Shown here: piece by piece, positions 1 to 33,437 of the stretch | Numbering within the stretch: the stretch's first letter is position 1 | How the letters are laid out: every line of letters begins with the position of its first letter | Assembly (NCBI GenBank): GCA_963680875.1 | Contig: OY804580.1 | Span: 93,029,353 to 93,093,352 of the forward strand | From: Bathymodiolus brooksi | Taxonomy: Eukaryota; Mollusca; Bivalvia; Mytilida; Modiolidae | Length of the DNA: 64,000 bases | Direction: 5' to 3' | Notes under the pieces: generated by a model | Told to the model about the DNA's origin: nothing | The model's input: only the letters and a program-made list of their open reading frames with translations | Databases searched by the model: none | Program-made: the position numbers and the translations under genes

Positions 1-480
1 AAGGTTGTTTTTGTCCTACAGGAATGGTTCCTGTATTCTGTGCTATATCATATTTGTCGTAAGGTTGTTTTTGTACTACAGGAATGGTTCCTGTATTCTG
101 TGCTATATCATATTTATCATAAGGTTGTTTCTGTTCTACAGGAATGGTTCCTGTATTATGTGCTATATCATATTTGTCGTAAGGTTGTTTCTGTTCTACA
201 GGAATGGTTCCTGTATTATGTGCTATATCATATATGTCATACGGTTGTTTTTGTTCTACAGGAATGGTTCCTGTATTCTGTACTATATCATATTTGTCAT
301 AATGTTGTTTCTGTTCTACAGGAATGGTTCCTGTATTATGTGATATATCATATTTGTCGTAAGGTTGTTTCTGTTCTACAGAAATGGTTCCTGTATTATT
401 TGCTATATCATATTTGTCATAATGTTGTTTCTGTTCTACAGGAACGGTTCCTGTATTTTGTGCTATATCATATTTGTCAT

Positions 481-3400
481 AGGGTTGTTTCTGTTCTACA
501 GGAATGGTTCCTTTATTCTGTGCTATATCATATTTGTCATAAGGTTGTTTCTCTTCTACAGGAATGGTTCCTGTATTCTGTACTATATCATATTTGTCAT
601 AATGTTGTTTCTGTTCTACAGGAATGGTTCCTGTATTCTGTACTATATCATATTTGTCATAATGTTGTTTCTGTTCTACAGGAACGGTTCCTGTATTTTG
701 TGCTATATCATATTTGTTATGGGGTTGTTTATGTTCTACAGGAATGGTTCCTGTATTCTGTACTATATCATATTTGTCATAAGGTTGTTTCTGTTCTACA
801 GGAATGGTTCCTGTATTCTGTACTATATCATATTTATCATAAGGTTGTTTCTGTTCTACAGGAATGGTTCCTGTATTATGTGCTATATCATATTTGTCAT
901 AAGGTTGTTTTTGTCCTACAGGAATGGTTCCTGTATTCTGTGCTATATCATATTTGTCGTAATGTTGTTTCTGTTCTACAGAAATGGTTCCTGTATTATT
1001 TGCTATATCATATTTGTCATAATGTTGTTTCTGTTCTACGGGAACAGTTCCTGTATTTTGTGCTATATCATATTTGTCATAGGGTTGTTTCTGTTCTACA
1101 GGAATGGTTCCTTTATTCTGTGCTATATCATATTTGTCATAAGGTTGTTTCTGTTCTACAGGAATGGTTCCTGTATTCTGTACTATATCATATTTGTCAT
1201 AATGTTGTTTCTGTTCTACAGGAATGGTTCCTGTATTCTGTACTATATCATATTTGTCATAATGTTGTTTCTGTTCTACATGAATGGTTCCTGTATTATG
1301 TGCTATATCATATTTGTCATAAGGTTGTTTTTGGCCTACAGGAATGGTTCCTGTATTCTGTGCTATATCATATTTGTCGTAAGGTTGTTTTTGTACTACA
1401 GGAATGGTTCCTGTATTCTGTGCTATATCATATTTATCATAAGGTTGTTTCTGTTCTACGGGAATGGTTCCTGTATTATGTGCTATATCATATTTGTCTT
1501 AAGGTTGTTTTTGTACTACAGGAATGGTTCCTGTATTCTGTGCTATATCATATTTATCATAAGGTTGTTTCTGTTCTACAGGAATGGTTCCTGTATTATG
1601 TGCTATATCATATTTGTCGTAAGGTTGTTTCTGTTCTACAGGAATGGTTCCTGTATTATGTGCTATATCATATATGTCATACGGTTGTTTTTGTTCTACA
1701 GGAATGGTTCCTGTATTCTGTACTATATCATATTTGTCATAATGTTGTTTCTGTTCTACAGGAATGGTTCCTGTATTATGTGATATATCATATTTGTCGT
1801 AAGGTTGTTTTTGTTCTACAGAAATGGTTCCTGTATTATTTGCTATATCATATTTGTCATAATGTTGTTTCTGTTCTACAGGAACGGTTCCTGTATTTTG
1901 TGCTATATCATATTTGTCATAGGGTTGTTTCTGTTCTACAGGAATGGTTCCTTTATTCTGTGCTATATCATATTTGTCATAAGGTTGTTTCTCTTCTATA
2001 GGAATGGTTCCTGTATTCTGTACTATATCATATTTGTCATAATGTTGTTTCTGTTCTACAGGAATGGTTCCTGTATTATGTGCTATATCATATTTGTCAT
2101 AAGGTTGTTTTTGTCCTACAGGAATGGTTCCTGTATTCTGTGCTATATCATATTTGTCGTAATGTTGTTTCTGTTCTACAGGAATGGTTCCTGTATTATG
2201 TGCTATATCATATTTGTCATAAAGTTGTTTTTGTTCTACAGGAATGGTTCCTGTATTATGTGCTATATCATATTTGTCATAAGGTTGTTTCTGTTCTACA
2301 GGAATGGTTCCTGTATTCTGTACTATATCATATTTATCATAATGTTGTTTCTGTTCTACAGGAATGGTTCCTGTATTATGTGCTATATCATATTTGTCAT
2401 AAGGTTGTTTTTGTCCTACAGGAATGGTTCCTGTATTCTGTGCTATATCATATTTGTCGTAATGTTGTTTCTGTTCTACAGAAATGGTTCCTGTATTATT
2501 TGCTATATCATATTTGTCATAATGTTGTTTCTGTTCTACGGGAACAGTTCCTGTATTTTGTGCTATATCATATTTGTCATAGGGTTGTTTCTGTTCTACA
2601 GGAATGGTTCCTTTATTCTGTGCTATATCATATTTGTCATAAGGTTGTTTCTGTTCTACAGGAATGGTTCCTGTATTCTGTACTATATCATATTTGTCAT
2701 AATGTTGTTTCTGTTCTACAGGAATGGTTCCTGTATTCTGTACTATATCATATTTGTCATAATGTTGTTTCTGTTCTACAGGAATGGTTCCTGTATTATG
2801 TGCTATATCATATTTGTCATAAGGTTGTTTTTGTCCTACAGGAATGGTTCCTGTATTCTGTGCTATATCATATTTGTCGTAAGGTTGTTTTTGTACTACA
2901 GGAATGGTTCCTGTATTCTGTGCTATATCATATTTATCATAAGGTTGTTTCTGTTCTACAGGAATGGTTCCTGTATTATGTGCTATATCATATTTGTCGT
3001 AAGGTTGTTTCTGTTCTACAGGAATGGTTCCTGTATTATGTGCTATATCATATATGTCATACGGTTGTTTTTGCTCTACAGGAATGGTTCCTGTATTCTG
3101 TACTATATCATATTTGTCATAATGTTGTTTCTGTTCTACAGGAATGGTTCCTGTATTATGTGATATATCATATTTGTCGTAAGGTTGTTTCTGTTCTACA
3201 GAAATGGTTCCTGTATTATTTGCTATATCATATTTGTCATAATGTTGTTTCTGTTCTACAGGAACGGTTCCTGTATTTTGTGCTATATCATATTTGTTAT
3301 AGGGTTGTTTCTGTTCTACAGGAATGGTTCCTTTATTCTGTGCTATATCATATTTGTCATAAGGCTGTTTCTCTTCTACAGGAATGGTTCCTGTATTCTG

Positions 3401-5580
3401 TACTATATCATATTTGTCATAATGTTGTTTCTGTTCTACAGGAACGGTTCCTGTATTTTGTGCTATATCATATTTGTTATGGGGTTGTTTATGTTCTACA
3501 GGAATGGTTCCTGTATTCTGTGCTATATCATATTTGTCATAAGGTTGTTTCTCTTCTACAGGAATGGTTCCTGTATTCTGTACTATATCATATTTGTCAT
3601 AAGGTTGTTTCTGTTCTACAGGAATGGTTCCTGTATTCTGTACTATATCATATTTATCATAAGGTTGTTTCTGTTCTACAGGAATGGTTCCTGTATTATG
3701 TGCTATATCATATTTGTCATAAGGTTGTTTTTGTCCTACAGGAATGGTTCCTGTATTCTGTGCTATATCATATTTGTCGTAATATTGTTTCTGTTCTACA
3801 GGAATGGTTCCTGTATTATGTGCTATATCATATTTGTCATAAAGTTGTTTTTGTTCTACAGGAATGGTTCCTGTATTATGTGCTATATCATATTTGTCAT
3901 AAGGTTGTTTCTGTTCTACAGGAATGGTTGCTGTATACTCTACTATATCATATTTGTCAGAATGTTGTTTCTGTTCTACAGGAAAGGTTCCTGTATTCTG
4001 TACTATATCATATTTGTCATAAGGTTGTTTTTGTTCTACAGGAATGTTTCCTGTATTTTGTGCTATATCATATTTGTTATGGGGTTGTTTATGTTCTACA
4101 GGAATGGTTCCTGTATTCTGTGCTATATCATATTTGTCATAAGGTTGTTTCTCTTCTACAGGAATGGTTCCTGTATTCTGTACTATATCATATTTGTCAT
4201 AAGGTTGTTTCTGTTCTACAGGAATGGTTCCTGTATTCTGTACTATATCATATTTATCATAAGGTTGTTTCTGTTCTACAGGAATGGTTCCTGTATTATG
4301 TGCTATATCATATTTGTCATAAGGTTGTTTTTGTCCTACAGGAATGGTTCCTGTATTCTGTGCTATATCATATTTGTCGTAATGTTGTTTCTGTTCTACA
4401 GGAATGGTTCCTGTATTATGTGCTAAATCATATTTGTCATAAAGTTGTTTTTGTTCTACAGGAATGGTTCCTGTATTATGTGCTATATCATATTTGTCAT
4501 AAGGTTGTTTCTGTTCTACAGGAATGGTTGCTGTATACTCTACTATATCATATTTGTCATAATGTTGTTTCTGTTCTACAGGAATGGTTCCTGTATTCTG
4601 TACTATATCATATTTGTCATAAGGTTGTTTTTGTTCTACAGGAATGTTTCCTGTATTATGTGTTATATCATATTTGTCATAAGGTTGTTTTTGTTCTACA
4701 GGAATGGTTCCTGTATTCTGTACTATATCATATTTGTCGTAAGGTTGTTTTCGTACTACAGGAATGGTTCCTGTATTCTGTGCTATATCATATTTATCAT
4801 AAGGTTGTTTCTGTTCTACAGGAATGGTTCCTGTATTATGTGCTATATCATATTTGTCGTAAGGTTGTTTTTGTACCACAGGAATGGTTCCTGTATTCTG
4901 TGCTATATCATATTTGTCGTAAGGTTGTTTCTGTTCTACAGGAATGGTTCCTGTATTATGTGCTATATCATATATGTCATAAGGTTGTTTTTGTTCTACA
5001 GGAATGGTTCCTGTATTCTGTACTATATCATATTTGTCGTAATGTTGTTTCTGTTCTACAGGAATGGTTCCTGTATTATGTGATATATCATATTTGTCGT
5101 AAGGTTGTTTCTGTTCTACAGAAATGGTTCCTGTATTATTTGCTATATCATATTTGTCATAATGTTGTTTCTGTTCTACAGGAACGGTTCCTTTATTCTG
5201 TGCTATATCATATTTGTCATAAGGTTGTTTCTGTTCTACAGGAATGGTTCTTGTATTCTGTACTATATCATATTTGTCATAATGTTGTTTCTGTTCTACA
5301 GGAATGGTTCCTGTATTCTGTACTATATCATATTTGTCATAATGTTGTTTCTGTTCTACAGGAACGGTTCCTGTATTTTGTGCTATATCATATTTGTCAT
5401 GGGGTTGTTTATGTTCTACAGGAATGGTTCCTGTATTCTGTACTATATCATATTTGTCATAAGGTTGTTTCTGTTCTACAGGAATGGTTCCTGTATTCTG
5501 TACTATATCATATTTATCATAAGGTTGTTTCTGTTCTACAGGAATGGTTCCTGTATTATGTGCTATATCATATTTGTCAT
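481..5580. repeat. Higher-order block I of the 60-bp array
   Basis: Variant units in this stretch recur in the same order in the next 5.3 kb. Lines 481-2,040 match 5,581-7,140 at an offset of 5,100 (85 units), and 2,041-5,580 match 7,380-10,860 at about 5,280-5,340. Diagnostic units include a CTACGGGAACAG unit at 1,021 and 2,521, an AAGGCTG unit at 3,361, an AATATTG unit at 3,781 and a TTCGTACTACA unit at 4,741. A shorter period is also visible: units ending TATATGTCAT start at 181, 1,621, 3,001 and 4,921. Confidence 0.85.
1499..4879 (-). other. Long open frame made of 20-residue repeats (probably not a gene)
   Basis: The minus strand is open for 1,126 codons and reads as a 20-residue repeat, DKYDIAQNTGTIPVEQKQPY, with swaps A/V, Q/H, E/G/V and P/H/L. 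It would be hydrophilic and rich in Tyr, Gln and Lys, the kind of composition seen in secreted structural proteins. A copy of the same frame occurs at 7,312-10,158 (948 codons). Against coding: the open length follows simply from a stop-free 60-bp unit, a + frame is open even longer (2,080-6,882, 1,600 codons), and only a minority of recurrent variants (unit positions 11, 56, 59 and part of 38) are synonymous in this frame. No start, promoter or splice context can be assigned. Its left end is set by a TAC-to-TAA change at about 1,500. Confidence 0.15.
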
Positions 5581-8500
5581 AAGGTTGTTTTTGTCCTACA
5601 GGAATGGTTCCTTTATTCTGTGCTATATCATATTTGTCATAAGGTTATTTCTCTTCTACAGGAATGGTTCCTGTATTCTGTACTATATCATATTTGTCAT
5701 AATGTTGTTTCTGTTCTACAGGAATGGTTCCTGTATTCTGTACTATATCATATTTGTCATAATGTTGTTTCTGTTCTACAGGAACGGTTCCTGTATTTTG
5801 TGCTATATCATATTTGTTATGGGGTTGTTTATGTTCTACAGGAATGGTTCCTGTATTCTGTACTATATCATATTTGTCATAAGGTTGTTTCTGTTCTACA
5901 GGAATGGTTCCTGTATTCTGTACTATATCATATTTATCATAAGGTTGTTTCTGTTCTACAGGAATGGTTCCTGTATTATGTGCTATATCATATTTGTCAT
6001 AAGGTTGTTTTTGTCCTACAGGAATGGTTCCTGTATTCTGTGCTATATCATATTTGTCGTAATGTTGTTTCTGTTCTACAGAAATGGTTCCTGTATTATT
6101 TGCTATATCATATTTGTCATAATGTTGTTTCTGTTCTACGGGAACAGTTCCTGTATTTTGTGCTATATCATATTTGTCATAGGGTTGTTTCTGTTCTACA
6201 GGAATGGTTCCTTTATTCTGTGCTATATCATATTTGTCATAAGGTTGTTTCTGTTCTACAGGAATGGTTCCTGTATTCTGTACTATATCATATTTGTCAT
6301 AATGTTGTTTCTGTTCTACAGGAATGGTTCCTGTATTCTGTACTATATCATATTTGTCATAATGTTGTTTCTGTTCTACATGAATGGTTCCTGTATTATG
6401 TGCTATATCATATTTGTCATAAGGTTGTTTTTGTCCTACAGGAATGGTTCCTGTATTCTGTGCTATATCATATTTGTCGTAAGGTTGTTTTTGTACTACA
6501 GGAATGGTTCCTGTATTCTGTGCTATATCATATTTATCATAAGGTTGTTTCTGTTCTACGGGAATGGTTCCTGTATTATGTGCTATATCATATTTGTCTT
6601 AAGGTTGTTTTTGTACTACAGGAATGGTTCCTGTATTCTGTGTATATCATATTTATCATAAGGTTGTTTCTGTTCTACAGGAATGGTTCCTGTATTATGT
6701 GCTATATCATATTTGTCGTAAGGTTGTTTCTGTTCTACAGGAATGGTTCCTGTATTATGTGCTATATCATATATGTCATACGGTTGTTTTTGTTCTACAG
6801 GAATGGTTCCTGTATTCTGTACTATATCATATTTGTCATAATGTTGTTTCTGTTCTACAGGAATGGTTCCTGTATTATGTGATATATCATATTTGTCGTA
6901 AGGTTGTTTTTGTTCTACAGAAATGGTTCCTGTATTATTTGCTATATCATATTTGTCATAATGTTGTTTCTGTTCTACAGGAACGGTTCCTGTATTTTGT
7001 GCTATATCATATTTGTCATAGGGTTGTTTCTGTTCTACAGGAATGGTTCCTTAATTCTGTGCTATATCATATTTGTCATAAGGTTGTTTCTCTTCTATAG
7101 GAATGGTTCCTGTATTCTGTACTATATCATATTTGTCATAATGTTGTTTCTGTTCTACAGGAATGGTTCCTGTATTCTGTACTATATCATATTTGTCATA
7201 ATGTTGTTTCTGTTCTACAGGAACAGTTCCTGTATTTTGTGCTATATCATATTTGTTATGGGGTTGTTTATGTTCTACAGGAATGGTTCCTGTATTCTGT
7301 ACTATATCATATTAGTCATAAGGTTGTTTCTGTTCTACAGGAATGGTTCCTGTATTCTGTACTATATCATATTTATCATAAGGTTGTTTCTGTTCTACAG
7401 GAATGGTTCCTGTATTATGTGCTATATCATATTTGTCATAAGGTTGTTTTTGTCCTGCAGGAATGGTTCCTGTATTCTGTGCTATATCATATTTGTCGTA
7501 ATGTTGTTTCTGTTCTACAGGAATGGTTCCTGTATTATGTGCTATATCATATTTGTCATAAAGTTGTTTTTGTTCTACAGGAATGGTTCCTGTATTATGT
7601 GCTATATCATATTTGTCATAAGGTTGTTTCTGTTCTACAGGAATGGTTCCTGTATTCTGTACTATATCATATTTATCATAATGTTGTTTCTGTTCTACAG
7701 GAATGGTTCCTGTATTATGTGCTATATCATATTTGTCATAAGGTTGTTTTTGTCCTACAGGAATGGTTCCTGTATTCTGTGCTATATCATGTTTGTCGTA
7801 ATGTTGTTTCTGTTCTACAGAAATGGTTCCTGTATTATTTGCTATATCATATTTGTCATAATGTTGTTTCTGTTCTACGGGAACAGTTCTTGTATTTTGT
7901 GCTATATCATATTTGTCATAGGGTTGTTTCTGTTCTACAGGAATGGTTCCTTTATTCTGTGCTATATCATATTTGTCATAAGGTTGTTTCTGTTCTACAG
8001 GAATGGTTCCTGTATTCTGTACTATATCATATTTGTCATAATGTTGTTTCTGTTCTACAGGAATGGTTCCTGTATTCTGTACTATATCATATTTGTCATA
8101 ATGTTGTTTCTGTTCTACAGGAATGGTTCCTGTATTATGTGCTATATCATATTTGTCATAAGGTTGTTTTTGTCCTACAGGAATGGTTCCTGTATTCTGT
8201 GCTATATCATATTTGTCGTAAGGTTGTTTTTGTACTACAGGAATGGTTCCTGTATTCTGTGCTATATCATATTTATCATAAGGTTGTTTCTGTTCTACAG
8301 GAATGGTTCCTGTATTATGTGCTATATCATATTTGTCGTAAGGTTGTTTCTGTTCTACAGGAATGGTTCCTGTATTATGTGCTATATCATATATGTCATA
8401 CGGTTGTTTTTGTTCTACAGGAATGGTTCCTGTATTCTGTACTATATCATATTTGTCATAATGTTGTTTCTGTTCTACAGGAATGGTTCCTGTATTATGT

Positions 8501-10860
8501 GATATATCATATTTGTCGTAAGGTTGTTTCTGTTCTACGGGAACAGTTCCTGTATTTTGTGCTATATCATATTTGTTATAGGGTTGTTTCTGTTCTACAG
8601 GAATGGTTCCTTTATTCTGTGCTATATCATATTTGTCATAAGGCTGTTTCTCTTCTACAGGAATGGTTCCTGTATTCTGTACTATATCATATTTGTCATA
8701 ATGTTGTTTCTGTTCTACAGGAACGGTTCCTGTATTTTGTGCTATATCATATTTGTTATGGGGTTGTTTATGTTCTACAGGAATGGTTCCTGTATTCTGT
8801 GCTATATCATATTTGTCATAAGGTTGTTTCTCTTCTACAGGAATGGTTCCTGTATTCTGTACTATATCATATTTGTCATAAGGTTGTTTCTGTTCTACAG
8901 GAATGGTTCCTGTATTCTGTACTATATCATATTTATCATAAGGTTGTTTCTGTTCTACAGGAATGGTTCCTGTATTATGTGCTATATCATATTTGTCATA
9001 AGGTTGTTTTTGTCCTACAGGAATGGTTCCTGTATTCTGTGCTATATCATATTTGTCGTAATATTGTTTCTGTTCTACAGGAATGGTTCCTGTATTATGT
9101 GCTATATCATATTTGTCATAAAGTTGTTTTTGTTCTACAGGAATGGTTCCTGTATTATGTGCTATATCATATTTGTCATAAGGTTGTTTCTGTTCTACAG
9201 GAATGGTAGCTGTATACTCTACTATATCATATTTGTCAGAATGTTGTTTCTGTTCTACAGGAATGGTTCCTGTATTCTGTACTATATCATATTTGTCATA
9301 AGGTTGTTTTTGTTCTACAGGAATGTTTCCTGTATTTTGTGCTATATCAAATTTGTTATGGGGTTGTTTATGTTCTACAGGAATGGTTCCTGTATTCTGT
9401 GCTATATCATATTTGTCATAAGGTTGTTTCTCTTCTACAGGAATGGTTCCTGTATTCTGTACTATATCATATTTGTCATAAGGTTGTTTCTGTTCTACAG
9501 GAATGGTTCCTGTATTCTGTACTATATCATATTTATCATAAGGTTGTTTCTGTTCTACAGGAATGGTTCCTGTATTATGTGCTATATCATATTTGTCATA
9601 AGGTTGTTTTTGTCCTACAGGAATGGTTCCTGTATTCTGTGCTATATCATATTTGTCGTAATGTTGTTTCTGTTCTACAGGAATGGTTCCTGTATTATGT
9701 GCTAAATCATATTTGTCATAAAGTTGTTTTTGTTCTACAGGAATGGTTCCTGTATTATGTGCTATATCATATTTGTCATAAGGTTGTTTCTGTTCTACAG
9801 GAATGGTTGCTGTATACTCTACTATATCATATTTGTCATAATGTTGTTTCTGTTCTACAGGAATGGTTCCTGTATTCTGTACTATATCATATTTGTCATA
9901 AGGTTGTTTTTGTTCTACAGGAATGTTTCCTGTATTATGTGTTATATCATATTTGTCATAAGGTTGTTTTTGTTCTACAGGAATGGTTCCTGTATTCTGT
10001 ACTATATCATATTTGTCGTAAGGTTGTTTTCGTACTACAGGAATGGTTCCTGTATTCTGTGCTATATCATATTTATCATAAGGTTGTTCCTGTTCTACAG
10101 GAATGGTTCCTGTATTATGTGCTATATCATATTTGTCGTAAGGTTGTTTTTGTACCACAGGAATGGTTCCTGTATTCTGTGCTATATCATATTTGTCGTA
10201 AGGTTGTTTCTGTTCTACAGGAATGGTTCCTGTATTATGTGCTATATCATATATGTCATAAGGTTGTTTTTGTTCTACAGGAATGGTTCCTGTATTCTGT
10301 ACTATATCATATTTGTCGTAATGTTGTTTCTGTTCTACAGGAATGGTTCCTGTATTATGTGATATATCATATTTGTCGTAAGGTTGTTTCTGTTCTACAG
10401 AAATGGTTCCTGTATTATTTGCTATATCATATTTGTCATAATGTTGTTTCTGTTCTACAGGAACGGTTCCTTTATTCTGTGCTATATCATATTTGTCATA
10501 AGGTTGTTTCTGTTCTACAGGAATGGTTCTTGTATTCTGTACTATATCATATTTGTCATAATGTTGTTTCTGTTCTACAGGAATGGTTCCTGTATTCTGT
10601 ACTATATCATATTTGTCATAATGTTGTTTCTGTTCTACAGGAACGGTTCCTGTATTTTGTGCTATATCATATTTGTCATGGGGTTGTTTATGTTCTACAG
10701 GAATGGTTCCTGTATTCTGTACTATATCATATTTGTCATAAGGTTGTTTCTGTTCTACAGGAATGGTTCCTGTATTCTGTACTATATCATATTTATCATA
10801 AGGTTGTTTCTGTTCTACAGGAAGGGTTCCTGTATTATGTGCTATATCATATTTGTCATA
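5581..10860. repeat. Higher-order block II, tandem copy of block I
   Basis: This block repeats the unit order of block I with few differences. One unit is missing at 8,521, where two parental units are fused (3,181 and 3,241 in block I). A single-base deletion near 6,643 turns TGCTATATC into TGTATATC and shifts the register by one. Shared rare variants (a CTCTTCTATAG unit at 7,081 and 1,981; a TTCGTACTACA unit at 10,021 and 4,741) show recent duplication rather than independent mutation. Confidence 0.85.
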
Positions 10861-11460
10861 AGGTTGTTTTTGTCCTACAGGAATGGTTCCTGTATTTTGT
10901 GCTATATCATATTTGTCATAAGGTTGTTTCTGTTCTACAGGAATGGTTGCTGTATACTCTACTATATCATATTTGTCATAATGTTGTTTCTGTTCTACAG
11001 GAATGGTTCCTGTATTCTGTACTATATCATATTTGCCATAAGGTTGTTTTTGTTCTACAGGAATGTTTCCTGTATTATGTGTTATATCATATTTGTCATA
11101 AGGTTGTTTTTGTTCTACAGGAATGGTTCCTGTATTCTGTACTATATCATATTTGTCGTAAGGTTGTTTCTGTTCTACAGGAATGGTTCCTGTATTATGT
11201 GCTATATCATATTTGTCATAAGGTTTTTTCTGTTCTACAGGAATGGTTACTGTATTCTGTGCTATATCATATTTGTCATAATGTTGTTTCTGTTCTACAG
11301 GGATGGTTCCTGTATTCTGTGCTATATCATATTTGTCATAAGGTTGTTTCTATTCTACAGGAATGGTTCCTGTATTCTGTACTATATGATATTTGTCATA
11401 ATGATTGTTTATGTTCTACAGGAATGGTTCCTGTATTCTGTGTAATATCATATTTGTCAT

Positions 11461-13980: not shown

Positions 13981-15240
13981 TAAGGTTGTTTCTGTTCTAC
14001 AGAAATGGTTCCTGTATTATTTGCTATATCATATTTGTCATAATGTTGTTTCTGTTCTACGGGAACAGTTCCTGTATTTTGTGCTATATCATATTTGTCA
14101 TAGGGTTGTTTCTATTCTACAAGAATGGTTCCTTTATTCTGTGCTATATCATATTTGTCATAAGGTTGTTTCTGTTCTACAGGAATGGTTCCTGTATTCT
14201 GTACTATATCATATTTGTCATAATGTTGTTTCTGTTCTACAGGAATGGTTCCTGTATTATGTGCTATATCATATTTGTCATAAGGTTGTTTTTGTCCTAC
14301 AGGAATGGTTCCTGTATTCTGTGCTATATCATATTTATCATAAGGTTGTTTCTGTTCTACGGGAATGGTTCCTGTATTATGTGCTATATCATATTTGTCG
14401 TAAGGTTGTTTTTGTACTACAGGAATGGTTCCTGTATTCTGTGCTATATCATATTTATCATAAGGTTGTTTCTGTTCTACAGGAATGGTTCCTGTATTAT
14501 GTGCTATATCATATTTGTCGTAAGGTTGTTTTTGTAACACAGGAATGGTTCCTGTATTCTGTGCTATATCATATTTGTCGTAAGGTTGTTTCTGTTCTAC
14601 AGGAATGGTTCCTGTATTATGTGCTATATCATATATGTCATAAGGTTGTTTTTGTTCTACAGGAATGGTTCCTGTATTCTGTACTATATCATATTTGTCA
14701 TAATGTTGTTTCTGTTCTACAGGAATGGTTCCTGTATTATGTGGTATATCATATTTGTCGTAAGGTTGTTTCTGTTCTACAGAAATGGTTCCTGTATTAT
14801 TTGCTATATCATATTTGTCATAATGTTGTTTCTGTTCTACAGGAACGGTTGCCGTATTTTGTGCTATATCATATTTGTCATAGGGTTGTTTCTGTTCTAC
14901 AGGAATGGTTCCTTTATTTTGTGCTATATCATATTTGTCATAAGGTTGTTTCTCTTCTACAGGAATGGTTCCTGTATTCTATACTATATCATATTTGTCA
15001 TAGTGTTGTTTCTGTTCTACAGGAATGGTTCCTGTATTCTGTACTATATCATATTTGTCATAATGTTGTTTCTGTTCTACAGGAACGGTTCCTGTATTTT
15101 GTGCTATTTCATATTTGTTATGGGGTTGTTTATGTTCTACAGGAATGGTTCCTGTATTCTGTACTATATCATATTTGTCATAAGGTTGTTTCTGTTCTAC
15201 AGGAATGGTTCCTGTATTCTGTAGTATATCATATTTATCA

Positions 15241-20100: not shown

Positions 20101-23100
20101 GTAAGGTTGTTTCTGTTCTACAGGAATGGTTCCTGTATTATATGCTATATCATATTTGTCATAAGGTTGTTTTTGTTCTACAGGAATGGTTCCTGTATTC
20201 TGTACTATATCATATTTGTCATAAGGTTGTTTATGTTCTACAGGAATGGTTCCTGTATTCTGTACAATATCATATTTGTCATAAGGTTGTTTATGTTCTA
20301 CAGGAATGGTTCCTGTATTATGTGCTATATCATATTTGTCATAATGTTGTTTCTGTTCTACAGGGATGGTTCCTGTATTCTGTGCTATATCATATTTGTC
20401 ATAAGGTTGTTTCTGTTCTGCAGGAATGGTTCCTGTATTCTGTACTATATGATATTTGTCATAATGATTGTTTATGTTCTACAGGAATGGTTCCTGTATT
20501 CTGTACTATATGATATTTGTCATAAGGTTTTTTCTGTTCTACAGGAATGGTTCCTGTATTCTGTACTATATGATATTTGTCATAAGGTTGTTTCTGTTCT
20601 ACATGAATGTTTCCTGTATTCTGTACTATATGATATTTGTCATAAGGTTGTTTTTGTTCTACATGAATGGTTCCTGTATTCTGTGCTATATCATATTTGT
20701 CATAAGGTTGTTTCTGTTCTACAGGAATGGTACCTGTATTCAGTGCTATATCATATTTGTCATAATGTTGTTTCCTATTCTACAGGAATGGTTCATGTAT
20801 TATGTGCAATATGATATTTGTCATAAGGTTGTTTTTGTTCTGCATGAATGGTTCCTGTAGTATGTGTTGTATCATATTTGTCATAAGGTTGTTTCTGTTC
20901 TGCAGGATTGGTTCCTGTATTATGTGCTATATCATATTTGTCATAAGGTTTTTTCTGGTCTACAGGAATCTTTCCTGTATTCTCTGCTATGTCATATTTG
21001 TCATAATGTTGTTTCTGTTCTACAGGATGGTTCCTGTATTCTGTGCTATATCATATTTGTCATCAGGTTTTTTCTGTTCTACAGGAATGGTTTCTGTATT
21101 ATGTGCTATATCATATTTGTCATAAGGCTGTTTTTGTTCTACAGGAATGGTTCCTGTATTCTGTACTATATCATATTTGTCGTAAGGTTGTTTCTGTTCT
21201 ACAGGAATGTTTCCTGTATTCTGTGTAATATCATATTTGTTATAAGGTTGTTTCTGTTCTAGAGGAATGGTTCCTGTATTCTGTACTATATCATATTTGT
21301 CGTAAAGTTGTTTCTGTTCTACAGTAATGGTTCCTGTATTATGGCAATATCATATTTGTCATAATGTTGTTTCTGTTCTACAGGAATGGTTCCTGTATTA
21401 TGTGCTATATCATATTTGTCGTAAGGTTGTTTCTGTTCTACAGGAATGGTTCCTGTATTATATGCTATATGATATTTGTCGTAAGGTTGTTTCTATTCTA
21501 CAGAAATGTTTCCTGTATTATATGCTATATCATATTTGTCATAATGTTGTTTCTGTTCTACAGGAACGGTTCCTGTATTTTGTGCTATATCATATTTGTC
21601 ATGGGGTTGTTTCTGTTCTACAGGAATGGTTCCTGTATTCTGTACTATATCATATTTGTCATAAGGTTGTTTCTGTTCTACAGGAATGGTTCCTGTATTC
21701 TGTACTATATCATATTTATCATAAGGTTGTTTCTGTTCTACAGGAATGGTTCCTGTATTATGTGCTATATCATATTTGTCATAAGGTTGTTTTTGTTCTA
21801 CAGGAATGGTTCCTGTATTCTGTACTATATCATATTTGTCATAATGTTGTTTCTGTTCTACAGGAACGGTTCATTTATTTTGTGCTATATCATATTTGTC
21901 ATAGGGTTGTTTCTGTTCTACAGGAATGGTTCCTGTATTCTGTGCTACATCATATTTGTCATAAGGTTGTTTCTGTTCTACAGGAATGGTTCCTGTATTC
22001 TGTACTATATCATATTTGTCATAAGGTTGTTTCTGTTCTACAGGAATGATTCCTGTATTATGTGCTATGTCATATTTGTCATAATGTTGTTTCTGTCCTA
22101 CAGGAATGGTTCATGTATTCTGTGCTATATCATATTTGTCATAAGGCTGTTTCTGTTCTACAGGAATGGTTCCTGTTTTCTGTGCTATATTATTTTTGTC
22201 ATAAAGTTGTTTCTGTTCTACAGGAATGGTTCCTGTATTCTCTACTATATGATATTTGTCATAAGGTTGTTTTTGTTCTACAGGAATGTTTCCTGTATTC
22301 TGTACTATATGATATTTGTCATAAGGTTGTTTCTGTTCTACATGAATGGTTCCTGTATTCTGTGCTATATCATATTTGTCATAATGTTGTTTCTGTTCTA
22401 CAGGAATGGTACCTGTATTCAGTGCAATATCATATTTGTCATAATGTTGTTTCCTATTCTACAGGAATGGTTCATGTATCATGTGCAATATGATATTTGT
22501 CATAAGGTTGTTTTTGTTCTGCATGAATGGTTCCTGTAGTATGTGTTGTATCATATTTGTCATAAGGTTGTTTCCGTTCTGCAGGATTGGTTCCTGTATT
22601 ATGTGCTATATCATATTTTTCATAAGGTTTTTTCTGGTCTACAGGAATGGTTCCTGTATTCTCTGCTATGTCATATTTGTCATAATGTTGTTTCTGTTCT
22701 AGAGGAATGGTTCCTGTATTCTGTGGTATATCATATTTGTCATAAGGTTTTTTATGTTCTACAGGAATGGTTCCTGTATTATGTTCTATATCATATTTGT
22801 CATAAGGCTGTTTTTGTTCTACAGGAATGGTTCCTGTATTCTGTACTATATCATATTTGTCGTAAGGTTGTTTCTGTTCTACAGGAATGGTTCCTGTATT
22901 CTGTGTAATATCATATTTGTCATAAGGTTGTTTCTGTTCTAGAGGAATGGTTCCTGTATTCTGTACTATATCATATTTGTCGTAAAGTTGTTTCTGTTCT
23001 ACAGGAATGGTTCCTGTATTATGTGCAATATCATATTTGTCATAATGTTGTTTCTGTTCTACAAGAATGGTTCCTGTATTATGTGCTATATCATATTTGT

Positions 23101-26100
23101 CGTAAGGTTGTTTCTGTTCAACAGAAATGGTTCCTGTATTATATGCTATATCATATTTGTCGTAAGGTTGTTTCCGTTCTACAGAAATGGTTCCTGTATT
23201 ATATGCTATATCATATTTGTCATAATGTTGTTTTTGTTCTACAGGAACGGTTCCTGTATTTTGTGCTATATCATATTTGTCATGGGGTTGTTTCTGTTCT
23301 ACAGGAATGGTTCCTGTATTCTGTACTATATCATATTTGTTATAAGGTTGTTTCTGTTCTACAGGAATGGTTCCTGTATTCTGTACTATATCATATTTAT
23401 CATAAGGTTGTTTCTGTTCTACAGGAATGGTTCCTGTATTATGTGCTATATCATATTTGTCATAAGGTTGTTTTTGTCCTAAAGGAATTGTTCCTGTATT
23501 CTGTGCTATATCATATTTGTCGTAAGGTTGTTTCTGTTCTACAAGTATGGTTCCTGTATTATGTGCTATATCATATTTGTCATAAGGTTGTTTTTGTTCT
23601 ACAGGAATGGTTCCTGTATTCTGTACTATATCATATTTGTCGTAAGGTTGTTTCTGTTCTACAGGAATGGTTCCTGTATTATGTGCTATATCATATTTGT
23701 CATAATGTTGTTTTTGTTCTACAGGGATGGTTCCTGTATTCTGTGCTATATCATATTTGTCATAAGGTTGTTTCTGTTCTACAGGAATGGTTCCTGTATT
23801 CTGTGCTATATCATATTTGTCACAAGGTTGTTTCTGTTCTACAGGAATGGTACCTGTATTCTGTACTATATCATATTTGTCATAAGGTTGTTTCTGTTCT
23901 ACAGGAATGGTTCCTGTATTCTGTGCTATATCATATTTGTCATAATGTTGTTTCTGTTCTACAGGAATGGTTCCTGTATTATGTTCTATATCATATTTGT
24001 CATAAGGTTGTTTCTGTTCTATAGGAATGGTCCCTGTATTCTGTGCTATATCATGTTTGTCATAATGTTGTTTCTGTTCTACATGAATGGTTTCTGTATC
24101 CTGTGCTATATCATATTTGTCGTAAGGTTGTTTCTGTTCTACAGGAATGGTTGCTGTATTCTCTACTATATCATATTTGTCATAATGTTGTTTCTGTTCT
24201 ACAGGAATGGTTCCTGTATTTTGTGCTATATCATATTTGTCATGGGGTTGTTTCTGTTCTACAGGAATGGTTCCTGTATTCTTTACTATATCATATTTGT
24301 CATAAGGTTGTTTCTGTTCTACAATAATGGTTCCTGTATTCTGTACTATATCATATTTGTTATAAGGTTGTTTCTGTTCTACAGGAACGGTTCATTTATT
24401 TTGTGCTATATCATATTTGTCATAGGGTTGTTTCTGTTCTACAGGAATGGTTCCTGTATTCTGTGCTACATCATATTTGTCATAAGGTTGTTTCTGTTCT
24501 ACAGGAATGGTTCCTGTATTCTGTACTATATCATATTTGTCATAAGGTTGTTTCTGTTCTACAGGAATGATTCCTGTATTATGTGCTATATCATATTTGT
24601 CATAAAGTTGTTTTTGTTCTACAGGGATGGTTACTGTATTCTGTGCTATATTATATTTGTCGTAAGGTTGTTTCTGTTCTACATGAATGGTTGCTGTATT
24701 CTCTACCATATCATATTTGTCATAATGTTGTTTCTGTTCTACAGGAATGGTTCCTGTATTCTGTACTATATCATATTTGTCATAGGGTTGTTTTTGTTCT
24801 ACAGGAATGGTTCCTGTATTATGTGTTATATCATATTTGTCATAAGGTTGTTTTTGTTCTACAGGAATGGTTCCTGTATTCTCTACTATATCATATTTGT
24901 CATAAAGTTTTTTCTGTTCTACAGGAATGGGTACTGTATTCTGTACTATATCATATTTGTCGTAAGGTTGTTTCTGTTCTACAGGAATGGTTCCAGTATT
25001 ATGTGCTATATCATATTTGTCATAAGGTTGTTTCTGTTCTACAGGAATGGTTACTGTATTCTGTACTATATGATATTTGTCATAATGATTGTTCATGTTC
25101 TACAGGAATGGTTCCTGTATTCTGTACTATATGATATTTGTCATAAGGTTGTTTCTGTTCTACAGGAATGGTTCCTGTATTCTGTACTATATGATATTTG
25201 TCATAAGGTTGTTTCTGTGTTACAGGAATGTTTCCTGTATTCTGTACTATATGAAATTTGTCATAAGGTTGTTTCTGTTCTACATGAATGGTTCCTGTAT
25301 TCTGTGCTATATCATATTTGTCATAAGGTTGTTTCTGTTCTACAGGAATGGTTCCTGTATTCAGTGCTATATCATATTTGTCATAATGTTGTTTCCTATT
25401 CTAAAGGAATGGTTCATGTATTATGTGCAATATGATATTTGTCATAAGGTTGTTTTTGTTCTGCATGAATGGTTCCTGTAGTATGTGTTGTATCATATTT
25501 GTCATAAGGTTGTTTCTGTTCTGCAGGATTGATTCCTGTATTATGTGCTATATCATATTTGTCATAAGGTTTTCTTCTGGTCTACAGGAATGGTTCCTGT
25601 ATTCTCTGCTATGTCATATTTGTCATAATGTTGTTTCTGTCCTACAGGAATGGTTCCTGTATTCTGTGCTATATCATATTTGTCATAAGGCTGTTTCTGT
25701 TCTACAGGAATGTTTCCTGTTTTCTGTGCTATATTATTTTTGTCATAAAGTTGTTTCTGTTCTACAGGAATGGTTCCTGTATTCTCTACTATATGATATT
25801 TGTCATAAGGTTGTTTCTGTTCTACAGGAATGTTTCCTGTATTCTGTACTATATGATATTTGTCATAAGGTTGTTTCTGTTCTACATGAATGGTTCCTGT
25901 ATTCTGTGCTATATCATATTTGTCATAAGGTTGTTTCTGTTCTACAGGAATGGTACCTGTATTCAGTGCAATATCATATTTGTCATAATGTTGTTTCCTA
26001 TTCTACAGGAATGGTTCATGTATCATGTGCAATATGATATTTGTCATAAGGTTGTTTTTGTTCTGCATGAATGGTTCCTGTAGTATGTGTTGTATCATAT

Positions 26101-29100
26101 TTGTCATAAGGTTGTTTCCGTTCTGCAGGATTGGTTCCTGTATTATGTGCTATATCATATTTGTCATAAGGTTTTTTCTGATCTACAGGAATGGTTCCTG
26201 TATTCTCTGCTATGTCATATTTGTCATAATGTTGTTTCTGTTCTACATGAATGGTTCCTGTATTCTGTGCTATATCATATTTGTCATAAGGTTTTTTCTG
26301 TTCTACAGGAATGGTTCCTGTATTATGTTCTATATCATATTTGTCATAAGGCTGTTTTTGTTCTACAGGAATGGTTCCTGTATTCTGTACTATATCATAT
26401 TTGTCGTAAGGTTGTTTCTGTTCTACAGGAATGGTTCCTGTATTCTGTGTAATATCATATTTGTCATAAGGTTGTTTCTGTTCTAGAGGAATGGTTCCTG
26501 TATTCTGTACTATATCATATTTGTCGTAAAGTTGTTTCTGTTCTACAGGAATGGTTCCTGTATTATGTGCAATATCATATTTGTCATAATGTTGTTTCTG
26601 TTCTACAGGAATGGTTCCTGTATTATGTGCTATATCATATTTTCGTAAGGTTGTTTCTGTTCTACAGAAATGGTTCCTGTATTATATGCTATATCATATT
26701 TGTCGTAAGGTTGTTTCTGTTCTACAGAAATGGTTCCTGTATTATATGCTATATCATATTTGTCATAATGTTGTTTTTGTTCTACAGGAACGGTTCCTGT
26801 ATTTTGTGCTATATCATATTTGTCATGGGGTTGTTTCTGTTCTACAGGAATGGTTCCTGTATTCTGTACTATATCATATTTGTTATAAGGTTGTTTCTGT
26901 TCTACAGGAATGGTTCCTGTATTCTGTACTATATCATATTTATCATAAGGTTGTTTCTGTTCTACAGGAATGGTTCCTGTATTATGTGCTATATCATATT
27001 TGTCATAAGGTTGTTTTTGTCCTACAGGAATTGTTCCTGTATTCTGTGCTATATCATATTTGTCGTAAGGTTGTTTCTGTTCTACAGGTATGGTTCCTGT
27101 ATTATGTGCTATATCATATTTGTCATAAGGTTGTTTTTGTTCTACAGGAATGGTTCCTGTATTCTGTACTATATCATATTTGTCGTAAGGTTGTTTCTGT
27201 TCTACAGGAATGGTTCCTGTATTATGTGCTACATCATATTTGTCATAATGTTGTTTTTGTTCTACAGGGATGGTTCCTGTATTCTGTGCTATATCATATT
27301 TGTCATAAGGTTGTTTCTGTTCTACAGGAATGGTTCCTGTATTCTGTGCTATATCATATTTGTCACAAGGTTGTTTATGTTCTACAGGAATGGTTCCTGT
27401 ATTCTGTACTATATCATATTTGTCATAAGGTTGTTTCTGTTCTACAGGAATGGTACCTGTATTCAGTGCAATATCATATTTGTCATAATGTTGTTTCCTA
27501 TTCTACAGGAATGGTTCATGTATCATGTGCAATATGATATTTGTCATAAGGTTGTTTCTGTTCTAGAGGAATGGTTCCTGTATTCTGTACTATATCATAT
27601 TTGTCGTAAAGTTGTTTCTGTTCTACAGGAATGGTTCCTGTATTATGTGCAATATCATATTTGTCATAATGTTGTTTCTGTTCTACAGGAATGGTTCCTG
27701 TATTATGTGCTATATCATATTTGTCGTAAGGTTGTTTCTGTTCTACAGAAATGGTTCCTGTATTATATGCTATATCATATTTGTCGTAAGGTTGTTTCTG
27801 TTCTACAGAAATGGTTCCTGTATTATATGCTATATCATATTTGTCATAATGTTGTTTTTGTTCTACAGGAACGGTTCCTGTATTTTGTGCTATATCATAT
27901 TTGTCATGGGGTTGTTTCTGTTCTACAGGAATGGTTCCTGTATTCTGTAATATATCATATTTGTTATAAGGTTGTTTCTGTTCAACAGGAACGGTTCCTG
28001 TATTTTGTGCTATATCATATTTGTCATGGGGTTTTTTCTGTTCTACAGGAATGGTTCCTGTATTATGTGCTATATCATATTTGTCATAAGGTTGTTTTTG
28101 TCCTACAGGAATTGTTCCTGTATTCTGTGCTATATCATATTTGTCGTAAGGTTGTTTCTGTTCTACAGGTATGGTTCCTGTATTATGTGCTATATCATAT
28201 TTGTCATAAGGTTGTTTCTGTTCTACAGGAATGGTTCCTGTATTCTGTACTATATCATATTTGTCGTAAAGTTGTTTCTGTTCTACAGGAATGGTTCCTG
28301 TATTATGTGCAATATCATATTTGTCATAATGTTGTTTCTGTTCTACAGGAATGGTTCCTGTATTATGTGCTATATCATATTTGTCGTAAGGTTGTTTCTG
28401 TTCTACAGGAATGGTTCCTGTATTATGTGCTATATCATATTTGTCATAATGTTGTTTTTGTTCTACAGGGATGGTTCCTGTATTCTGTGCTATATCATAT
28501 TTGTCACAAGGTTGTTTCTGTTCTACAGGAATGGTTCCTGTATTCTGTACTATATCATATTTGTCATATGGTTGTTTCTGTTCTACAGGAATGGTTCCTG
28601 TATTCTGTGCTATATCATATTTGTCATAATGTTGTTTCTGTTCTACATGAATGGTTAATGTATTCTGTGCTATATCATATTTGTCGTAAGGTTGTTTCTG
28701 TTCTACAGGAATGGTTGCTGTATTCTCTACCATATCATATTTGTCATAATGTTGTTTCTGTTCTACAGGAACGTTTCCTGTATTTTGTTCTATATCTTAT
28801 TTGTCATGGGGTTGTTTCTGTTCTACAGGAATGGTTCCTGTATTCTGTACTATATCATATTTGTCATAAGGTTGTTTCTGTTCTACAGGAATGTTTCCTG
28901 TATTCTGTACTATATGATATTTGTCATAAGGTTGTTTCTGTTCTACATGAATGGTTCCTGTATTCTGTAATATATCATATTTGTCATAAGGTGTTTCTGT
29001 TCTACAGGAATGGTACCTGTATTCAGGGTAATATCATATTTGTCATAATGTTGTTTCCTATTCTACAGGAATGGTTCATGTATCATGTGCAATATGATAT

Positions 29101-32100
29101 TTGTCATAAGGTTGTTTTTGTTCTGCATGAATGGTTCCTGTAGTATGTGTTGTATCATATTTTTCATAAGGTTGTTTCTGTTCTGCAGGATTGGTTCCTG
29201 TATTATGTGCTATATCATATTTGTCATAAGGTTTTTTATGTTCTACAGGAATGGTTCCTATATTATGTTCTATATCATATTTGTCATAAGGTTGTTTCTG
29301 TTCTATAGGAATGGTTCCTGTATTCTGTGCTATATCATGTTTGTCATAATGTTGTTTCTGTTCTACATGAATGGTTTCTGTATTCTGTGCTATATCATAT
29401 TTGTCGTAAGGTTGTTTCTGTTCTACAGGAATGGTTGCTGTATTCTCTACTATATCATATTTGTCATAATGTTGTTTCTGTTCTACAGGAATGGTTCCTG
29501 TATTTTGTGCTATATCATAGTTGTCATGGGGTTGTTTCTGTTCTACAGGAATGGTTACTGTATTCTTTACTATATCATATTTGTCATAAGGTTGTTTCTG
29601 TTCTACAGGAATGGTTCCTGTATTCTGTACTATATCATATTTGTTATAAGGTTGTTTCTGTTCTACAGGAATGGTTCCTGTATTATGTGCTATATCATAT
29701 TTGTCATAAGGTTGTTTCTGTTCTACATGAATGGTTACTGTATTGTGTGCTATATCATATTTGTCGTAAGGTTGTTTCTGTTCTACAGGAATGGTTGCTG
29801 TATTCTCTACTATATCATATTTGTCATAATGTTGTTTCTGTTCTACAGGATTGGTTCCTGTATTATGTACTATATCATATTTGTCATAAGGTTGTTTTTG
29901 TTCTACAGGAATGGTTCCTGTATTATGTGTTATATCATATTTGTCATAAGGTTGTTTTTGTTCTACAGGAATGGTTCCTGTGTTCTGTGCTATATCATAT
30001 TTGTCATAAGGTTGTTTTTGTTCTACAGGAATGGTTCCTGTATTCTGTACTATATCATATTTGTCATAATGTTGTTTCTGTTCTACAGGAATGGTTCCTG
30101 TATTCTGTACTATATCATATTTGTCATAATGTTGTTTTTGTTCTACAGGAATGGTTCCTGTATTCTGTACTATATCATATTTGTCATAATGTTGTTTTTG
30201 TTCTACAGGAATGGTTCCTGTATTCTGTACTATATCATATTTGTCATAAGGTTGTTTTTGTTCTACAGGAATGGTTCCTGTATTCTGTACTATATCATAT
30301 TTGTCATAATGTTGTTTCTGTTCTACAGGAACGGTTCCTGTATTTTGTGCTATATCATATTTGTCATAGGGTTGTTTCTGTTCTACAGGAATGGTTCCTG
30401 TATTCTGTACTATATCATATTTGTCATAATGTTGTTTCTGTTCTACAGGAATGGTTCCTGTATTATGTGCTATATCATATTTGTCATAAGGTTGTTTCTG
30501 ATCTACATGAATGGTTACTGTATTGTGTGCTATATCATATTTGTCGTAAGGTTGTTTCTGTTTTACAGGAATGGTTGCTGTATTCTCTACTATATCATAT
30601 TTGTCATAATGTTGTTTCTGTTCTACAGGAATGGTTCCTGTATTCTTTACTATATCATATTTGTCATAAGGTTGTTTTTGTTCTACAGGAATGGTTCCTG
30701 TATTATGTGTTATATCATATTTGTCATAAGGTTGTTTTTGTTCTACAGGAATGGTTCCTGTATTCTGTACTATATCATATTTGTCGTAAGGGTGTTTCTG
30801 TTCTACAGGAATGTTTCCTGTATTCTGTGCTATATCATATTTGTCATAATGTTGTTTCTGTTCTACAGGAATGGTTGCTGTATTCTGTACTATATCATAT
30901 TTCTCATAATGTTGTTTCTGTTCTACAGGAATGGTTCCTGTATTCTGTGCTATATCATATTTGTTATAAGGTTGTTTCTGTTCTACAGGAATGGTTGCTG
31001 TATTCTCTACTATATCATATTTGTCATAATGTTGTTTCTGTTCTACAGGAATGGTTCCTGTATTCTGTACTATATCATATTTGTCATAAGGTTGTTTCTG
31101 TTCTACAGGAATGGTTCCTGTATTCTGTACTATATCATATGTGTCGTAAGGTTGTTTTTGTTCTACAGGAATGGTTCCTGTATTCTCTACTATATCATAT
31201 TTGTCATAATGTTGTTTCTGTTCTACAGGAATGGTTGCTGTATTCTCTACTATATCATATTTGTCATAATGTTGTTTCTGTTCTACAGGAATGGTTCCTG
31301 TGTTCTGTGCTATATCATATTTGTTATAAGGTTGTTTCTGTTCTACAGGAATGGTTGCTGTATTCTCTACTATATCATATTTGTCATAATGTTGTTTCTG
31401 TTCTACAGGAATGGTTCCTGTATTCTGTACTATATCATATTTGTCATAATGTTGTTTCTGTTCTACAGGAATGGTTCCTGTATTCTGTACTATATCATAT
31501 TTGTCGTAAGGTTGTTTCTGTTCTACAGGAATGGTTCCTGCATTATGTTCTATATCATATTTGTCATAAGGTTTTTTCTGTTCTACAGGAATGGTTACTG
31601 TATTCTGTGCTATATCATATTTGTCGTAAGGTTGTTTCTGTTCTACAGGAATGGTTCCTGTATTATGTGCTATATCATATTTGTCATAAGGTTGTTTTTG
31701 TTCTACAGGAATGGTTCCTGTATTCTGTACTATATCATATTTGTCGTAAGGTTTTTTCTGTTCTACAGGAATGGTTCCTGTATTATGTGCTATATCATAT
31801 TTGTCATAATGTTGTTTCTGTTCTACATGAATGGTTCCTGTATTCTGTGCTATATCATATTTGTCATAAGGTTGTTTCTGTTCTACAGGAATGGTTCCTG
31901 TATTCTGTACTATATGATATTTGTCATAATGACTGTTTATGTTCTACAGGAATGGTTCCTGTATTCTGTACTATATGATATTTGTCATAAGGTTGTTTCT
32001 GTTCTACAGGAATGGTTCCGGTATTCTCTACTATATGATATTTGTCATAAGGTTGTTTCTGTTCTACATGAATGGTTCCTGTATTCTGTGCTATATCATA

Positions 32101-33437
32101 TTTGTCATAAGGTTGTTTCTGTTCTACAGGAATGGTTCCTGTATTCTGTGCTATATCATATTTGTCATAATGTTGTTTCCTATTCTACAGGAATGGTTCC
32201 TGTATTATGTGCTATATCATATTTTTCGTAAGGTTGTTTCTGTTCTACAGGAATGGTTCCTGTGGTCTGTGCTATATTATATTTGTCATAAGGTTTTTTC
32301 TGTTCTAAAGGAATGGTTCCTGTATTATGTGCTATATCATATTTCTCGTAAGGTTGTTTCTGTTCTAAAGGAATGGTTCCTGTATTATGTGCTATATCAT
32401 ATTTCTCGTTAGGTTGTTTCTGTTCTACAGGAATGGTTCCTGTATTATGTGCTATATCATATTTCTCGTAAGGTTATTTCTGTTCTAAAGGAATGGTTCC
32501 TGTATTATGTACTATATCATATTTGTCATAAGCTGCTTCTGTTCTACAGGAATGGTTCCTGTATTCTGTGCATTATCATGTTTGTCATAATGTTATTTCT
32601 GTTCTACAGGAATGGTTCCTGTATTATGTGCTATATCATATTTGTCATAAGGTTGTTTCTGTTCTACAGGAATGGTTCCTGTATTAAGTGCTATATCATA
32701 TTTTTCATAATTTGTTTTTCTGTTCTACAGGAATGGTTGCTGTATTCTGTATTATATCATATTTGTCATAAGGTTGTTTCTGTTCTACAGGAATGGTTCC
32801 TGTATTATGTGCTATATCATATTTGTATTAAGGTTGTTTCTGTTCTACGGGAATGGTTCCTGTATTCTGTGCTGTATCATATTTGTCATAATGTTGTTTC
32901 TGTTCTACAGTAATGGTTCCTGTATTCTGTGTTCTATCATATTTGTCATAATGTTGTTTTTGTTCTACAGGAATTGTTCTTGTATTCTGTGCTATATCAT
33001 TTTTTTCATAGTTTGTTTTTCTGTTCTACAGGAATGGTTGCTGTATTCTGTACTATATCATATTTGTCGTAAGGTTGTTTCTGTTCTACAGGAATGGTTC
33101 CTGTATTATGTGCTATATGATATTTGTCATAAGGTTGTTTCCGTTCTACAGGAATGGTTCCTGTATTCTGTGCTATATCATATTTGTAATAATGTTGTTT
33201 CTGTTCTACAGGAATGGTTCCTGTATTCTGTGCTATATCATATTTGTCATAATGTTGTTTCTGTTCTACAGGAATGGTTTCTGTATTCTGTGATATATCA
33301 TATTTGTCATCAGGTTGTTTCTGTTCTACAGGAATGGTTCCTGTATTCTGTGTTATGTCATATTTGTGATAAGGTTGTTTCTGTTCTACAGGAATGGTTC
33401 CTGTATTATGTGCTATATCGTATTTATCATAAGGTTG
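17161..33437. repeat. Right, more diverged half of the 60-bp array
   Basis: Units here differ more from each other and single-base indels are frequent (for example near 19,629, 20,049, 20,775, 21,027, 25,390, 28,990 and 32,540). Higher-order copies are still visible. A cluster of units with TTCCTATTCTACAGG, GTTCTGCATGAATGG and GTTCTGCAGGATTGG is collinear at 20,761-21,260, 22,441-22,940 and 25,981-26,480. The segment after 22,921 matches that after 26,461 (offset 3,540). The last kilobase, from about 32,200, is the most irregular, as expected at a satellite edge. Confidence 0.85.

Follow-up and report, generated by a model that had tools for sequence, protein, structure and literature searches.

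In Lathyrus sativus, satellites are reported to have expanded from short tandem arrays within long terminal repeat (LTR) retrotransposons (PMC7004042). In Drosophila, the TIR-220 satellite is reported to derive from the Tetris foldback transposon (PMC4079207), and in the oyster Crassostrea gigas the corresponding systems are the central repeats of the Helentron Cg_HINE and Cg170 (PMC7492417, PMC11136912). Here we describe a 60-bp satellite of the bivalve Bathymodiolus brooksi, found in a 64,000-nucleotide stretch of contig OY804580.1 (C6 hereafter; positions 93,029,353-93,093,352), which is called the window below. The assembly (GCA_963680875.1) has 2.0 Gb in 136 contigs, with 131.5 Mb in C6, and this single assembly underlies all results. 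We propose that the satellite is noncoding and was probably born inside a larger repeat, with a short minisatellite (type B) of a 3.45-kb module as the kind of source.

A 175.9-kb array of 60-bp units

Tandem Repeats Finder (TRF) reports a single plus-strand array at window 1-33443 (period 60, 557.2 copies, 91% matches, score 54,671), and its consensus is AAGGTTGTTTCTGTTCTACAGGAATGGTTCCTGTATTCTGTGCTATATCATATTTGTCAT. This bears out the initial annotation, which had described at least 33.4 kb, or about 557 units, of a 60-bp repeat running off the window. With 200 kb left of the window added to the analysis, the array was found to start 142.5 kb left of the window and to occupy C6:92,886,903-93,062,795, that is, 175.9 kb on one strand without a break and 5 times the length seen at first. 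It comprises 2,933 units, of which 2,764 are of 60 bp, 89 of 61, 66 of 59 and 12 of 58, besides two partial ends; thus the absence of any interrupting element, previously claimed for the window, holds for the full length as well. Head-to-tail, near-identical units over tens of kb are what satellite DNA consists of, and it is confirmed that the satellite array is real and larger than first noted.

A parse of window 1-33600 against the cyclic consensus gives 560 units, 532 of 60 bp, 18 of 61 and 8 of 59, with two odd ones of 41 and 69 bp, both at the right end of the array, and the mean identity of the units to the consensus is 0.949. The first 6.6 kb have no indels, and elsewhere single-base indels shift the phase. 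The repeat had been called perfectly phased; the regular 60-bp periodicity stands and the perfection does not, since 28 of the 560 parsed units (two of them terminal) are not of 60 bp. Among 558 window units there are 261 distinct monomers, 185 of which occur once.

The longest copied block of the array has 326 units (lag 22,254 bp, 9 mismatches, 99.954% identity); further blocks have 142 units (lag 8,525 bp, 99.953%), 112 units (lag 7,314 bp, 99.866%) and 62 units (lag 3,780 bp, 100%), and shorter ones are also present. A fixed higher-order repeat was rejected, since no lag dominates (the best, 371 units, has 4.51 mean mismatches and the next, 46 units, has 4.86). Monomers unique in the array make up 0.37 of the first 100-unit block and 0-0.03 of each of 15 of the 30 blocks; at the right end the fraction is 0.30-0.38 for the three last full blocks and 0.73 for the final 33 units. 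Unequal exchange is classically expected to leave an interior that has turned over between decayed edges, and the block duplications and edge decay fit that process. Under unequal exchange anything landing inside is lost or copied itself, which would account for the absence of insertions. The recent expansion and homogenization suggested earlier for this array are supported by the 99.95% blocks of up to 326 units and by the gradient of unique monomers.

The 22-kb blocks at 99.95% identity could also have been mis-duplicated, which would make the length of the array an assembly artefact, a possibility raised in the initial annotation. We regard this as highly improbable, because there is no N in 264 kb, the edges show the gradient just described, the same junction occurs in three arrays and the same repeat is found in five proteins from other public contigs, of this or another species (see below). 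The array as such is thus unlikely to be artificial, while its exact copy number rests on the assembly.

The array ends in the head of a type-B minisatellite

On its right the giant array adjoins a family of tandem modules of 3.45 kb, with about 1.7 copies at window 33444-39237 (found by self-comparison and genome search, and present also on another contig, C15) and three copies at C6:92,862,094-92,873,200 (self-comparison). The module holds two 60-bp mini-arrays, type A with 1.5 to 6.5 units (six copies) and type B with 3.67 units (all four small C6 copies), and the type-A and type-B halves of the module are 76-78% alike. In the window, TRF locates type-A arrays of 4.5 diverged units at 34649-34921 and of 2.5 units at 38228-38378, and a type-B array of 3.67 units, a small relative of the giant array, lies at 36900-37119; all three are on the minus strand.

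Window 33348-33573, where the giant array terminates on the right, is itself a type-B head. The head that ends the array, at window 33431-33591 on the minus strand, consists of a 41-bp unit lacking 19 bases at 33431, diverged units and a leader, which stops at an acceptor-like TAG at 33592-33594 (minus strand). The 41-bp unit and the leader are common to the giant-array end and to all four small type-B arrays read on C6. Moreover, window 33161-33459 shows 91% identity with the head of a C15 type-B array over query positions 1-299.

Type-B arrays range in size from 3.67 units through roughly four at C15:80.94 Mb (counted by eye), more than six at C15:74.63 Mb and 26 at C6:29.24 Mb to 2,933 in the giant array. 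At C15:74.63 Mb the array runs on with satellite-type monomers beyond the 400-base piece that was read, and the module spacing is 4.1-5.0 kb there, as against 3.3-3.9 kb in other clusters. Module sequence flanks the 26-unit copy at C6:29.24 Mb on both sides, with 81% identity along 1,256 bp of one flank and 79% along 546 bp of the other. We also observed that module copies alternate at 4,919 and 4,136 bp (a period of 9,055 bp) at C15:74.62-74.64 and 74.95-74.97 Mb; these two clusters are offset by 326.3 kb, which suggests another large duplication.

Module copies at several C15 places and at C6:29.24 Mb would also be expected if the module were a non-autonomous transposon with internal tandem repeats, like the oyster Helentron HINE, and if the satellite came from its central repeats. 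A tRNA-like stretch was seen by eye in the module spacer, and satellites from internal repeats of larger elements have precedents (PMC7492417, PMC11136912, PMC7004042, PMC4079207). Such an origin is possible yet rather unlikely. None of the three short module frames scanned is transposase-like; Rfam gives no match, and ARAGORN reports no tRNA in window 33-64 kb. The module spacer has 46 matches, 7 on C6 and 39 on C15 (40 of 9,867 candidates scored), and the copies listed are thus on two contigs and mostly in local clusters, unlike those of a dispersed element. Helentrons of the HINE type are described with monomers of about 140-180 bp in arrays of tens at most (PMC7492417), and the unit found here has 60 bp and is repeated up to 2,933 times.

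Three arrays with one common junction

C6 holds at least three 60-bp arrays, since two more (arrays 1 and 2) lie within 1 Mb left of the giant one (array 3). Leftwards from the giant array, a 972-bp satellite occupies about 13.7 kb and the 3.45-kb module about 11 kb more; then comes array 2, from 92,741,002 to 92,862,093. Array 1 begins at 91,885,442, and the 972-bp satellite directly precedes both. For array 2 three pieces were read, for array 1 two pieces plus two samples, and both are presumably continuous. Each of the three C6 arrays seen thus has the 972-bp satellite on its left, at C6:91.83-91.885, 92.66-92.741 and 92.873-92.887 Mb. In the window this satellite has about 5.4 tandem copies (39238-44473, by self-comparison) and, at 44981-45279, a diverged fragment (about 81%); a genome search with it, in which 1 of 113 candidates was scored, says little about the spread of the family.

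The junction of the 972-bp and 60-bp satellites is the same at 91,885,433, 92,740,993 and 92,886,898, with pairwise identities of 97.4-98.9% over 1,800 bp. Of the four samples of the 972-bp family, three, at distances of as much as 870 kb, do not differ in the 247-283 bases that they have in common. Because the three arrays have one common junction, the simplest reading of the sequences is that this junction would have arisen once and that the composite was then copied to at least three places on C6.

Twenty 300-bp samples were classified across the C6 region around arrays 1 and 2. The 60-bp satellite was found in two of them (91.96 and 92.00 Mb) and the 972-bp satellite in four (91.83, 91.86, 92.66 and 92.70 Mb); those at 92.10 and 92.18 Mb show weak matches of 69-74% to the 3.45-kb module, that at 91.78 Mb has a short match to the window flank, and the other 11 match none of the families. 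All eight samples between 92.05 and 92.58 Mb have neither the 60-bp nor the 972-bp satellite, so other DNA parts arrays 1 and 2. These eight samples also bear on a functional role of the array as a centromere or pericentromere satellite, which its size, its homogeneity and the two other satellites clustered with it at C6:91.83-93.07 (of 131.5 Mb) might suggest. From the sequence such a role appears improbable: apart from the interval free of both satellites, only C6 and C15 carry the unit among the matches listed, not one array per chromosome, and there is no motif resembling the CENP-B box in the 264 kb.

To the abundance of the satellite, exact matches of a 28-base core give a guide. The core has 7,684 copies in the genome, 2,901 forward and 4,783 reverse (the reversed-pattern control has 0), far more than chance would give, and all 100 matches listed are on C6, from 91,885,468 onward. 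Applied to the genome-wide counts, its density (5.41 per kb for array 3, 5.19 per kb for the examined part of array 2) would give very roughly 1.4 Mb of the satellite in all, of which about 0.54 Mb would be on the plus strand and 0.9 Mb on the minus strand, with the reservation that the density on C15 may differ. Similarly, window 1-600 has 343 genome matches, and the 150 listed are all on C6. A query of 301 bases from a C15 array has 179 matches, those listed being on C15 (63.97, 74.62-75.18 and 81.56 Mb) and C6 (39 of 1,663 candidates scored), and a 67-amino-acid query of the repeat has 221, with C6 and C15 only among those listed (150 of 11,088 candidates scored). The 60-bp loci seen among the matches listed are therefore on C6 and C15, and further contigs may possibly have them.

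No coding constraint on the satellite

The unit has 3 x 20 bases and the array consensus is open in three of the six frames, so long frames come for free. They reach 1,626 codons; a giant coding gene was rejected, as none of them crosses the window array and the distinct variants are neutral. The coding test was based on 149 distinct variants in 566 distinct monomers, with 2,848 gap-free units included and 85 of the 2,933 excluded. Among distinct variants the counts of synonymous, changing and stop differences are near the neutral expectation in all six frames; in the minus frame DKYDIAQNTGTIPVEQKQPY, 32 are synonymous (30.4 expected) and 8 are stops (9.5 expected). When weighted by distinct monomer, the same frame has 553 synonymous differences against 402 expected and 78 stops against 176 expected. 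Similar departures are found in plus frame 2 (500 synonymous against 320 expected), plus frame 0 (48 stops against 139 expected) and plus frame 1 (44 stops against 90 expected). Selection cannot act on all of these mutually exclusive frames, and shared ancestry of common variants explains the weighted excess better. We thus take the 60-bp satellite as noncoding.

In Pfam, whole-protein sums exceed the curated cut-off for Parecho_VpG, Bflower_3, Rad21_Rec8 and DUF7447, and no single stretch passes it except one Bflower_3 stretch in a plus frame. The array matches to Parecho_VpG, FlgI, T4_UVSX_C and Bflower_3 were rejected as summed weak matches over identical repeats, and those of the open frame at 29.24 Mb to Rad21_Rec8, DUF7447, FlgI, V-cyclin_C and YscJ_FliF as summed weak matches. 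Of eight candidates in a protein search with one 300-amino-acid frame of the array, five reach E<=0.01; they come from JGI or ENA contigs and are the five proteins mentioned above. All five carry variants of the repeat DKYDIAQNTGTIPVEQKQPY, and one of them also bears, by eye, the sequence that follows a small type-B array.

It could be argued that the unit is an in-frame 20-codon repeat of a protein gene, that the type-A and type-B modules are copies of its last exon (acceptor, repeats, stop and poly-A signal) and that the satellite grew from the exon minisatellite of a pseudogenized copy. The unit length of 60 equals 3 x 20, and TAG precedes the conserved leader on the minus strand in all 11 C6 module copies aligned. 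At C6:29,244,622 to about 29,242,986, 545 open codons run over the 26 units to a TGA, with AATAAA downstream. By codon position 1/2/3, the leaders of two B copies differ from this copy by 1/2/6 and 1/2/5, and the weighted array counts in the minus frame, with synonymous differences above and stops below expectation, point the same way. However, the only type-A copy counted has leader differences of 3/4/4, with no third-position lean, and leader identity to the 29.24-Mb copy (0.83-0.88 in four copies) barely exceeds the 0.83-0.85 of the putative intron. All five distinct unit variants of the 29.24-Mb copy change the amino acid. Translated from the acceptor-like site, all 10 mini-array copies at C6:92.86-93.07 are broken, and stops occur in all three C15 pieces. 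In the array, the distinct-variant counts are neutral and the weighted excess is not special to the minus frame DKYDIAQNTGTIPVEQKQPY. The 29.24-Mb frame has no relative at E<=0.001 among six candidates and none in PDB sequences, and it could be a chance opening kept by recent homogenization.

We consider this exon explanation possible yet rather unlikely. The fuller account that would go with it is a shade more tentative still: a satellite of about a Mb in total from a protein-coding exon, with an open version that may persist at C6:29.24 Mb, sizes of 3.7, more than 6, 26 and 2,933 units, and a composite spread by segmental duplication. Should the 29.24-Mb copy prove to be a live exon, a protein-coding repeat would here have become a satellite, which to our knowledge is rare. 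Beside this copy, C6:29,245,000-29,254,999 has other minisatellites of 22, 31, 42, 44, 62 and 89 bp, some of them open in frame.

Proposed origin of the satellite

An origin of the noncoding satellite inside the module would start from what is observed, a module of about 3.45 kb bearing a short type-B minisatellite of a few 60-bp units. The type-B minisatellite of one C6 module would then have grown to thousands of units; the anatomy is observed, with the head still attached at window 33431-33591 and the opposite end at a breakpoint in the 972-bp satellite, and we infer the direction and the process. Unequal exchange or replication-based amplification may have copied blocks of anything from a few units to over 300, a pattern that is itself observed, and would have left near-identical interior blocks and decaying edges and purged insertions. 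Later, as the common junction suggests, the array and its 972-bp border would have been copied together, reaching at least three places within some 1 Mb of C6, and the C6 and C15 arrays would evolve partly separately. Growth from small to large is favored because the head is kept at one end and because the module is older and diverged, whereas the array is young by its internal identity.

Several observations weigh against this scenario. The small type-B units of the window stand apart from the satellite unit. Two of them are comparable, and against array monomers one has about 8 mismatches in 60 on average (minimum 4-5), the other about 12 (minimum 8-10). They are no nearer to the right end of the array, the last block being farther (9.1 and 12.7). 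These distances suggest that the small type-B arrays are relatives or cousins of the satellite and not its actual progenitor. Array 2 ends at 92,862,093 in a different part of the module and without a type-B head, so that under the birth model the head must have been deleted there. The edge gradient is not clean, as the fraction of unique monomers is 0.08-0.19 in 10 of the 30 blocks, including a central one at 92.947 Mb (0.19). A large array shrinking to a small version is a possible alternative direction, arrays 1 and 2 were read in part, and the whole account stems from one assembly.

How satellites begin mostly has to be guessed from arrays that are already complete; in the present genome, small relatives, intermediate sizes and the giant version exist together with a linking junction. 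Real breakpoints of this kind make models of satellite birth testable, with unequal exchange on the one side and replication- or circle-based amplification on the other.

The right flank of the window

The initial annotation had described the flanks as full of transposons. This is not borne out for the near flank, where 33.4-44.5 kb consist of the tandem families of 3.45 kb and 972 bp. Three reading frames of the flank beyond 44.5 kb were compared with Pfam, and the one match obtained, to RVT_1 (reverse transcriptase; window 63190-63717, minus strand, 26.1 bits), is below the cut-off. An inverted repeat of about 800 bp (window 59484-60260 and 60586-61348, 63% identity) is possibly an old transposon, and short GTCGGAC/AGTCCG repeats lie near it at 61372-62507. 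At window 54265-54609 TRF also finds a 173-bp unit repeated twice in tandem, the copies being 98% alike.

Comparison with known systems

No satellite with this unit was known to the initial annotation, and no described relative has emerged since. By titles and the beginnings of abstracts, the literature on bivalve satellites, 60-bp repeats and exon- or internal-repeat-derived satellites has no matching satellite, though supplementary tables may hold one, and the available part of PMC12818792 names no 60-bp family. A 22-base core occurs once each in five bacterial records, which we take as chance; it has 0 matches in viral contigs, scans of viral contigs for related loci found no relative of the satellite, and window 1-6000 has no phage match. 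The 60-bp family is thus apparently a previously undescribed satellite of a known kind, with an origin that is unusually readable.

With the three systems introduced above, the satellite shares the kind of event. In Lathyrus sativus, as here, a short internal array occasionally grows long and short versions persist elsewhere; its carriers, however, are dispersed LTR retrotransposons, whereas here the carrier is a tandem module of about 3.45 kb without recognized ends, on two contigs among the matches listed (PMC7004042). In Tetris, internal repeats of a larger element likewise became the building blocks of a satellite, but the 220-bp unit lies in terminal inverted repeats and forms arrays of kb size, in contrast to the 60-bp unit and the 175.9 kb found here (PMC4079207). 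Cg_HINE and Cg170 share with the present case tandem repeats that are nested in a larger repeat and tied to a classical satellite (PMC7492417, PMC11136912). The Cg_HINE monomers are of 140-180 bp, in dispersed arrays of 29 monomers at the longest, whereas here a 60-bp unit is repeated 2,933 times and occurs in local clusters (PMC7492417). What differs from these systems is the 60-bp unit, the size of the array, a carrier without known ends, and the presence of small to giant versions together with their junction in one genome.

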